This document shows positions 29,417 to 31,974 of a stretch of 64,000 nucleotides of DNA, one piece after another (position 1 is the first letter of the stretch; each line of letters begins with the position of its first letter). The notes under the pieces were generated by a model that was not told where the DNA came from, did no database searches, and saw only the letters and a list, made by a program, of their open reading frames with translations. The DNA is from Methylorubrum populi. Lineage in GTDB: Bacteria > Pseudomonadota > Alphaproteobacteria > Rhizobiales > Beijerinckiaceae. The position numbers and the translations under genes are program-made. Location: contig NZ_AP014809.1 in assembly GCF_002355515.1 (NCBI RefSeq), forward strand, positions 5,604,501 to 5,668,500. The letters run 5' to 3'.

Positions 29417-30118
29417 CGCCGCTACACCTCCAGCCGGGCGCGCCGCACGAGCGGGCGCGCGAAGAGCTCGGCGAGGTCGCCCGCCTGTTCGTAGCCCTGA
29501 ATCGGCGTGAACAGCAGTTCGATCGACCACTTCGTCGTCAGCCCCTCCGCCTCCAGCGGGTTGGCGAGACCGAGGCCGCACACCGTCAGGTCCGGCCGCG
29601 CCGCCCGGCAGCGGTCGAGCCCGTCATCCAGGCTCTGGCCCTCCACCACGGGCGTCCCGCCGGGAAGCCAGTCGATCTCCGCGGCGAGGTGGGCGCGATG
29701 GAGGTAGGGCGTGCCGACCTCGATCAGCTCCGCGCCCATCTCCCGCGACAGGAAGCGGGCGAGCGGCACTTCGAGCTGCGAATCGGGAAAGAAGAACACC
29801 CGCCTGCGCGCGAGCGTCTCGGCGTAGGCCGTCAGCGCCTGGCGCGCTCGCCGCACGCCCGGCGCCGTCACCGCCTCGAAGCGTCCCGTTTCGACGCCGA
29901 ACGCTTCGGCCGCCGCGCGAAGCCACGCGGTCGTCCCCTCGGCACCGAGGGGAAACGGAGCGGCGATCCGGCGGGCGCCGCGTTCCTCCAGGGCCCGGGC
30001 GGTGTCGGCGAGGAAGGGCTGGGCGAGGAGGAAGCGCGTGCCGCGCCCGACCGCCGGCATCTGATCGGCTCGCCGCGCCGGCAGGAACCGTGCGGCGATG
30101 CCGAGATCGGAGAACAGT

Positions 30119-30126
30119 CGCGTGAA
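30119..30126. repeat. Target-site duplication, left copy (CGCGTGAA)
   Basis: CGCGTGAA directly abuts the left end of the IS1-type element and recurs exactly at 30903-30910. Eight bp is within the 8-9 bp range known for IS1 insertion. Confidence 0.9.
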
Positions 30127-30902
30127 GAGGGTTTTAGGTTAGCATAGAGAGCAGGTCGCTGATCCTGCAGTTTCCGGCGAAACGGGCGAAGAGGGCGAGG
30201 CTGACGTCCACCATGCGCTTGGCTTTCGAGACCACGATTGAGCGGCGTCGAAAGCGGGCGAGCCAATGCCGCTGCCGGGCGTTGTCCCGCTCGATGCTGT
30301 GGGTCTCGTCCTTGCCCGTATAGTGCTGCCCGATCGGCAACAGCGCGGTGTAGGCAGCGTAGGCGTCCGTGCAGTAGAGCCGGGTGCGCCAGCGCTGCAG
30401 CCGTTGGATCAGGCGCTCGCAGGTGGCCTTGTCACGACCGCCGCATTCCCAGTCCACCAACTGCCCTGAAGCACGATCCCAAGCTTTCCAGATCCAGAGC
30501 GGCTCGGACTTTTTTTCACATAGTGCCACATCTCATCAAGCTCGATCACCACCGCCCGGCCTTCCGGCTCGGGCTTGTGCGCGTAGGCGGCGGCGAACTG
30601 CTCCAGCCAAGCCTGGATCGTCGGTGTCGAGACACCGAGCAGCTTGGCGGTGCGGTTCATCGACAAGCCGCTGACATACAGCAGGACCGCGGTGGCCTTC
30701 ATGGCCAGCGGCTTGCCGCGGGCGGGCGTGTCGGTGAAGTTCAGGCCACAGGCCTTGCACCGATACCGCTGCTTGGAGCGCATCAGCCCATTTTTGACGT
30801 GCTCCTCACTGCCACAACGCTTGCACTGCAGACCCATGACCCACCTCCCGCCGAATGCGCTCGGCGAGGAAGATAGGTCATCTATGCAGCCCTAAAACCC
30901 TC
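30127..30902 (-). mobile_element. IS1-family insertion sequence inside bchN
   Basis: 776 bp, the usual IS1 size. The ends are imperfect inverted repeats: GAGGGTTTTAGG is identical at both ends, followed by 3 mismatches and 7 further matches (GCATAGA), 19 of 22 overall. It is flanked by the 8-bp repeat CGCGTGAA. It carries two overlapping transposase frames on the minus strand, the same direction as bchN, joined by a seven-A slippery run. All parts look undamaged, so it may be mobile. Confidence 0.93.
30134..30837 (-). CDS. IS1 family transposase InsAB', made by -1 frameshift
   Basis: The first frame (30837 to 30409) has two CxxC pairs of a zinc-finger-like N-terminus ([13 protein letters not shown] and [11 protein letters not shown]) and a helix-turn-helix ([19 protein letters not shown]). 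The second frame (30529 to 30134) has the rest of the DDE core ([29 protein letters not shown]). A run of seven A residues on the coding strand (30510-30516) at HYVKK lets ribosomes slip back one base to give [13 protein letters not shown], as for the known A-rich IS1 slippery site. The two frames are therefore normal, not a mutation. Confidence 0.92.
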
Positions 30903-30910
30903 CGCGTGAA
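30903..30910. repeat. Target-site duplication, right copy (CGCGTGAA)
   Basis: Exact copy of 30119-30126 on the other side of the IS1-type element; the bases just outside both copies differ, so the duplication is exactly 8 bp. Confidence 0.9.
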
Positions 30911-31470
30911 CTGGTCCTCGACCACGTCGGCGAGCGCGCCGACGACGAGCAGATCGTCCGTCGCGGTCGCCGCCGGCAGGTCCGGCACCAAAGCCGCGAG
31001 GCAGGCATCCTCTCCCTGAGTGAAGGTCGTCTCGATGCCCGAGCCCGAGTAATTGAGCACGCGCACGGCGGGAGCCAGCCGCTGCGACAGCCGCAGGGCC
31101 GCCCGCGACAGGTCGAGCTTGATCACCTCGGAGGGACACGAGCCGACGAGGAACAGCAGCCGGATCTCCGGCCGCCGCTCGATCAGCCGCGTCACGACCC
31201 GGTCGAGCTCCTCGTTCATGTCGGCAAGGCCGGCGAGATCGCGCTCATCGATGATGGCGGTGGCGAAGCGCGGCTCGGCGAAGATCATCACGCCCGCCGC
31301 CGACTGGATCAGGTGGGCGCAGGTGCGGGAGCCGACGACGAGGAAGAAGGCGTCCTGGATCTTCCGGTGAAGCCAGACGATGCCGGTCAGGCCGCAGAAC
31401 ACGGCCCGCTGACCACGCTCGGCGCGGATGGCGACGTCGCATCCGGTTGCGGCGATGGGCGCGTGGGCGT

Positions 31471-31974
31471 TCACCGCGCGGCTCCCGCTGCGAGGGCGAG
31501 GGAGGCCGGCGCCTCGAGCCGTGCCGCCCGGAGCTTCAGGAGGAACTGAACGGCATTGATGAGGTAGGCGGCATAGGCGGCGAGCGCGAGGACCATCAAT
31601 CCGGGCGTGTCGAGCCAGCCGAGACCGAGTGCGGCGAGATAGGCCGTGTGCAGCGCCAGCACGAGGATGCTGAACACGTCCTCCCAGAAGAAGGCCGGCG
31701 CGAACAGGTAGCGGCCGAACACGGCCTTTTCCCAGATCGAGCCCGTCACCATGATCGCGTAGAGGACGAGGGTCTTGGCGACGACGGAGGCGCTGGCGAT
31801 CGCCGCACCTTCCCCGGTCGCGAGCGTGCGCAGGACGAGGCCGAGACTCGCGAGGAAGACGAGGAACTGCAGAGGAGCCAGCACTCCCTGCACGAGTGTC
31901 CAAGGCGAGGCGTCGCGCCGTTGGCGCTCGGCGCTCGTGTAGAGCGGTGTGTGCCGGCCCTGGCGCTGACGCAT
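31471..31974 (-). CDS. bchF: 3-vinyl bacteriochlorophyllide hydratase
   Basis: 167 aa membrane protein with about four hydrophobic segments; family motifs include [25 protein letters not shown] and LHTAYLAAL. Hydrates the C3 vinyl group to hydroxyethyl on the way to bacteriochlorophyll a. First gene of the long minus-strand run; its stop overlaps the GTG of bchN (GTGA). A PpsR-type box with an overlapping -35 element lies about 80 bp upstream. Confidence 0.93.

Follow-up and report, generated by a model that had tools for sequence, protein, structure and literature searches.

The bchN gene in a 64-kb stretch of the Methylorubrum populi chromosome (the whole stretch of DNA analysed, hereafter the window) is broken at codon 191, where a complete insertion sequence of the IS1 family, 776 bp long, has entered it. 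A single recent insertion by an active element of this family very probably broke the gene and, with it, the ability to make bacteriochlorophyll a. The gene encodes subunit N of the light-independent protochlorophyllide reductase, and the layout of the site, the copies of the element in this and other genomes, the remaining photosynthesis genes and the distribution of bchN across the genus all bear on this reading. The features of the site and its neighbourhood are collected in Table 1.

Anatomy of the interrupted gene

The piece of bchN upstream of the element is 572 nt long, or 190 codons plus 2 nt, and an exact copy of the 8-mer CGCGTGAA abuts the element on either side. By itself this 8-mer is not special, because its count in the 64-kb window (five observed) is near expectation (4.4); the chance that an exact 8-mer would abut both of the given element ends is about 1.5e-5 (4 to the power -8). 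When the element and one of the repeats are removed, the empty site reads as an open frame of 1269 nt, that is, 422 codons followed by a stop. The first-pass annotation had described a frame split after codon 190 by a 776-bp element with matching ends and an exact 8-bp duplication, restored to 422 codons by removal of the element and one repeat and retaining three NB-cluster cysteines. Each part of this description agrees with the present analysis, the break itself falling in codon 191.

The joined protein shares 98% identity with a metagenomic BchN that is intact and 91-92% with the BchN of Methylorubrum extorquens, and aligns over residues 11-420 with the solved Rhodobacter chain 3aek_A (581 bits). 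In this alignment Cys27, Cys52 and Cys113, which we take to be the cluster ligands of BchN, pair with cysteines of 3aek_A. The gene resembles the BchN family (TIGR01279; solved in 3aek, 8vqh and 2ynm) in its 422 codons when joined and in its retained cluster cysteines, and differs from it in being interrupted. More specifically, both the cysteines and the conserved sequence are kept in the two pieces, and no uninterrupted BchN frame over the family cut-off of 420 bits was found, the best pieces scoring 253 and 238 bits.

Table 1. Features of the interrupted bchN gene, the inserted element and neighbouring photosynthesis genes (positions within the window)
Feature	Position	Strand	Remarks
bchN, interrupted (subunit N, light-independent protochlorophyllide reductase)	29422..31474	-	Halves match DPOR_bchN TIGR01279 / NF002768 at consecutive profile ranges; joined frame
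bchN 5' part without the duplicated 8 bp, with three cluster cysteines	30911..31474	-	GTG start, 4-nt overlap with bchF stop
bchN 3' part	29422..30126	-	Earliest in-frame start codon at 30060
Target site duplication CGCGTGAA, copy 1	30119..30126	.	Abuts element
Target site duplication CGCGTGAA, copy 2	30903..30910	.	Abuts element
Complete IS1-family insertion sequence, 776 bp	30127..30902	.	Transposase gene on minus strand, co-oriented with bchN
Terminal inverted repeat, right end (transposase orientation)	30127..30148	+	
Terminal inverted repeat, left end (transposase orientation)	30881..30902	-	
insA-like frame, 142 aa	30409..30837	-	Zinc-binding and helix-turn-helix part
insB-like frame, 131 aa	30134..30529	-	IS1 DDE part; predicted to be entered from insA by -1 shift at seven-A run
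bchF, upstream neighbour of bchN	31471..31974	-	TIGR02020 174 bits, cut-off 101
bchB, downstream neighbour	27824..29416	-	Open; TIGR01278 606 bits, cut-off 490 (scanned 27881-29419)
bchH, 1238 aa	24133..27849	-	Open; TIGR02025 1502 bits, cut-off 829
bchL	23243..24136	-	Open; TIGR01281 440 bits, cut-off 345
lhaA-like frame	20938-22407	-	Named by position and by eye
PucC-like frame	35627-36988	+	Named by position and by eye

The two remnants and selection on bchN

The first piece of bchN runs eight residues into the element before it meets a stop, giving a product of 198 aa that retains the three cysteines and lacks the C-terminal 232 residues. In the second piece the earliest ATG, GTG or TTG corresponds to residue 211. 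A protein search with the 198-aa stub returned its own contig (5705640 bases) as the top match, followed by a 91% identical protein on a contig of 1239 bases; the protein cluster of the stub holds two member sequences on one contig, and a second, unseen record of it may exist. In the search with the C-terminal piece the top match was 91% identical among the best 120 of 1501, where the piece itself was absent, so that this search carries little weight. Further fragment-length BchN proteins occur among the matches listed, many of them on short contigs.

The nearest relative found is Methylobacterium sp. R2-1 (L016), whose bchN is 90% identical at the DNA level. Measured against it, the halves of bchN have dN/dS values of 0.16 and 0.12, next to 0.17 for bchF, 0.16 for bchB and 0.12 for bchH; between this relative and a further strain (L064), both of which have an intact bchN, the corresponding halves give 0.18 and 0.17. 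No relaxed selection on bchN was seen and there is no sign of decay, because the values of the halves are like those of the neighbouring genes and of the intact pair, a comparison that is weak for a very recent event and excludes an old one only. That the stub and a C-terminal piece starting at residue 211 assemble into a working, split reductase is very improbable. Both pieces are open and undamaged and the pattern of selection is unchanged in both halves, but residues 191-210 would be absent from such an enzyme, and a very recent event would leave the pattern unchanged just as well.

The IS1-family element and its copies

The element is bounded by 22-nt inverted repeats that are 86% complementary and carries two overlapping frames on the minus strand. 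A run of seven A residues at position 387 of the element allows a -1 frameshift from the insA-like into the insB-like frame, and the 234-aa product of such a shift is a full-length IS1-type transposase that matches NF033558 from end to end (1-199 of 199, 201 bits, cut-off 100), in keeping with the family to which the insertion had been assigned from the first. Scored separately, the two frames reach 89 and 98 bits, under the cut-off of 100. The same A run is found in relatives of the element that are 92% and 87% identical (L129 and L130), in two other genomes. With the IS1 family (NF033558, PF03400) the element thus shares a pair of overlapping frames with a slip site in an A run, a zinc-binding and helix-turn-helix N-terminal part, an IS1 DDE domain, short inverted ends, a length of 776 bp and an 8-bp duplication; target duplications in this family range from 8 to 9 bp. 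The sole difference is the host gene that was hit.

Three copies of the element, identical over 776 bases, are present in the genome. Of the two outside bchN, that at 79203 is flanked by a different exact duplication, CTGGAATT, and that at G000:C1:1429291-1430066 by none. Another genome of the genus (G011) holds three identical copies, two of them with exact duplications, and plasmid pB1501 of Methylobacterium organophilum WPA_B carries one identical copy, already annotated as an IS1 family transposase (WP_096482875.1). This plasmid copy spans the point at which the circular record begins, and its duplication is CGCCAGCC. Exact 8-bp duplications, differing between copies, therefore flank five of the seven identical copies (three in this genome, three in G011 and one on the plasmid). 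The assembler might conceivably have misplaced a repeat present in three copies into bchN, but an artefact of this kind is extremely unlikely, since the exact duplication at bchN, unlike that of the 79203 copy in sequence, marks a real transposition that misassembly would not create.

Some match to the element occurs in 15 of the 111 genomes of the genus, mostly a short one. Compared with the nearest relative found, bchN, bchB, bchH and bchF show dS values of 0.28-0.40. The element has spread recently, because it is identical base for base across genomes whose bch genes differ at many silent sites. The proposal of the first-pass annotation that the event was recent is borne out by the identical copies in this and two other genomes, by the undamaged state of the genes tested and by the lack of excess amino-acid changes in bchN. 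The intact metagenomic BchN with 98% identity places the insertion within a narrow lineage, though not in any particular setting, natural or laboratory.

Several further observations concern mobile DNA in these genomes. The two identical copies that lack a duplication (the 1429291 copy, which has an autotransporter frame on one side and an AraC-type regulator on the other, and L146 in G011) may have undergone deletion or rearrangement beside the element. A different identical copy in G011 (L142) breaks a frame that resembles, by eye, an AAA-type ATPase. At positions 6566-8005 the window contains a transposase frame of 479 aa that has DUF772 and DDE_Tnp_1_6 domains, belonging to a second, different insertion element. 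A plasmid stretch of the same genome that carries the Tn3-like ISMpo10 (L175, G000:C2:1-20000) is identical over thousands of bases to plasmids of Methylorubrum populi BJ001 and 95-99.9% identical to two plasmids of Sphingomonas sp. NIC1, a sign of recent exchange.

Other protochlorophyllide reductases

Anoxygenic phototrophs are described in a review (PMC7242693) as containing only the light-independent reductase, with BchN-BchB as its catalytic part. The whole genome (5943875 bases in six contigs, 99.98% complete) was searched for the two genes that the first-pass annotation had named as able to overturn its prediction, a second bchN and a light-dependent reductase gene (por), and yielded neither over its cut-off. 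The BchN model found the two halves and only two other matches. One of these, of 45 bits at 3.26 Mb, is bchY by position and frame within the bchXYZ-puf cluster; the other, of 33 bits, falls in bchB. The light-dependent reductase model gave 23 matches in the genome, none over the cut-off of 331 bits and the best at 71.8 bits, which we take for short-chain dehydrogenases of the ordinary sort; in control genomes this model gave matches in 13 of 14, in one of them over the cut-off. An exception to the exclusive use of the light-independent reductase by anoxygenic phototrophs is known in Dinoroseobacter. Nothing of that kind was seen in the present genome.

The remaining photosynthesis genes

On its minus strand the window carries bchF, bchN, bchB, bchH, bchL, bchM, an lhaA-like frame, puhA, puhB, acsF, puhE and 5-aminolevulinate synthase, and on its plus strand ppsR, bchG, a PucC-like frame and bchP. 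In addition to the genes scored in Table 1, bchM, puhA, puhB, puhE, acsF, bchG, bchP, ppsR and 5-aminolevulinate synthase exceed their family cut-offs, as does pufM elsewhere in the genome. The lhaA-like and PucC-like frames are the two of ten proteins scanned that had no NCBIfam match at a limit of 1e-30. Near 3.26 Mb, open frames for bchC, bchX, bchY, bchZ, the puf antenna, pufL, pufM and pufC were recognized by sequence and position, and a BchI-like frame lies at 2.87 Mb. The genes for bacteriochlorophyll and the reaction centre are found in at least four separate places on the chromosome (2.87, 3.26, 3.55 and 5.62-5.64 Mb).

To the first-pass annotation, every other photosynthesis gene of the window looked intact. 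This stands for the genes tested, which are open and undamaged. At 3.55 Mb bchD matches its model over 5-608 of 608 with 459 bits, under the curated cut-off of 500. Not all of the photosynthesis genes are in the window, since bchCXYZ-puf, the BchI-like frame and bchD lie outside it.

bchN across the genus

Some BchN match is present in 109 of the 111 genomes surveyed, and the five that fall under the cut-off are the present genome, G013, G030, G016 and G018. Of these, G030 has weak matches only, G016 and G018 have none, and G013 has two pieces in different frames. Neither a pufM match nor bchL over its cut-off was found in G016, G018 or G030, and these three are probably losses of the whole cluster rather than lesions of bchN only. 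Phototrophy loss thus seems to recur in the genus. Some genomes over the BchN cut-off show one internal stop; their matches reach model position 401 or beyond, and the stops probably reflect alignments running past the natural end of the gene. In 109 of 110 fetched loci (80 from one search and 30 from another, partly of the same species) bchN is a single unbroken frame, and in the last (L057) it is cut by a contig end. The titles and abstract openings listed in literature searches revealed no insertion in bchN of Methylobacterium.

In G013, a single-contig genome, bchN changes frame in a G-rich run (L151, G013:C1:242000-261999), and pufM and bchL are kept. Its bchH frame also looks short, at 891 aa by crude frame picking. 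The genome was not counted as a parallel bchN lesion, since the short bchH makes sequencing error as likely; multiple errors of sequencing or a decaying cluster would each account for it.

Two alternatives to a plain, fixed knockout are illuminated by this survey. The insertion in the present genome could mark an early stage of genuine phototrophy loss, as the initial lesion in a cluster from which selection has been lifted. The three of 111 genomes without BchN or bchL over the cut-off and without a pufM match make this a possibility to be entertained, though an unlikely one, as the photosynthesis genes tested showed no further lesion and dN/dS is not raised. A little less likely still is that only some of the sequenced cells carry the insertion, or that it appeared in the sequencing stock, so that the lineage as a whole can still make bacteriochlorophyll. 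Such an origin would fit the existence elsewhere of the 98% identical intact BchN, the presence of BchN over the cut-off in 106 of the 111 genomes and the youth and mobility of the element; against it, the assembled chromosome has the interrupted form only, but an assembly cannot show mixed populations. A recent insertion that disabled bchN in the sequenced strain remains the favored reading.

Predicted consequences for pigment and operon

A cell with the interrupted gene would make at most the N-terminal stub of 198 aa, perhaps together with a C-terminal piece of 212 aa, and a functional BchN-BchB heterotetramer is very unlikely to arise from these. Protochlorophyllide would then stay unreduced and bacteriochlorophyll a would be absent, leaving the intact genes for reaction centre and antenna without pigment. 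Laboratory bch insertion mutants of purple bacteria offer a parallel, in that the loss of one bch gene blocks bacteriochlorophyll, an outcome that is predicted here. Those mutants were constructed, whereas the present insertion is a spontaneous one in a sequenced genome.

The insertion may reach beyond bchN. The start of bchN lies in the stop of bchF (a GTGA overlap), bchB starts 5 nt past the stop of bchN, the first codon of bchH falls within bchB, and there is an overlap between bchL and the stop of bchH. By layout, bchF-bchN-bchB-bchH and the following genes form one operon, because they are tightly packed head to tail. Judged only by this packing, the insertion probably has a polar effect on bchB, bchH, bchL, bchM and the genes that follow them, a likely effect that is absent from the first-pass annotation and that follows from bchN being the second gene of the row. 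Polarity would lower the expression of these genes, and the block may fall partly before protochlorophyllide. Given this probable damping, protochlorophyllide need not pile up, and its accumulation alone could mislead as a readout if the insertion is polar. Two observations run counter to polarity: the element points the same way as bchN, and a scan of 30000-31000 revealed no terminator. The same scan found no promoter of the sigma-70 type, the only type it covered.

Gene inactivation by an insertion sequence is an ordinary mechanism, of which the bchN case is a very clean instance. Members of the genus usually grow methylotrophically and non-phototrophically, and tolerance of the loss is to be expected. 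It is conceivable, if improbable, that the insertion, rather than being a laboratory accident, opens the loss of phototrophy in a natural lineage, favored by shutting the pigment operon and sparing the cell phototoxic chlorophyll precursors, and reversible by precise excision for as long as the exact duplication lasts.

If bchN was simply broken by a recent transposition, as appears very probable, the presence of pufM or of a photosynthesis cluster is by itself insufficient for calling a genome phototrophic. The strain would represent a ready-made knockout, in which the phototrophic machinery that was checked is present except for one subunit of protochlorophyllide reductase, and it may help to show how much a Methylobacterium-type bacterium gains from bacteriochlorophyll.
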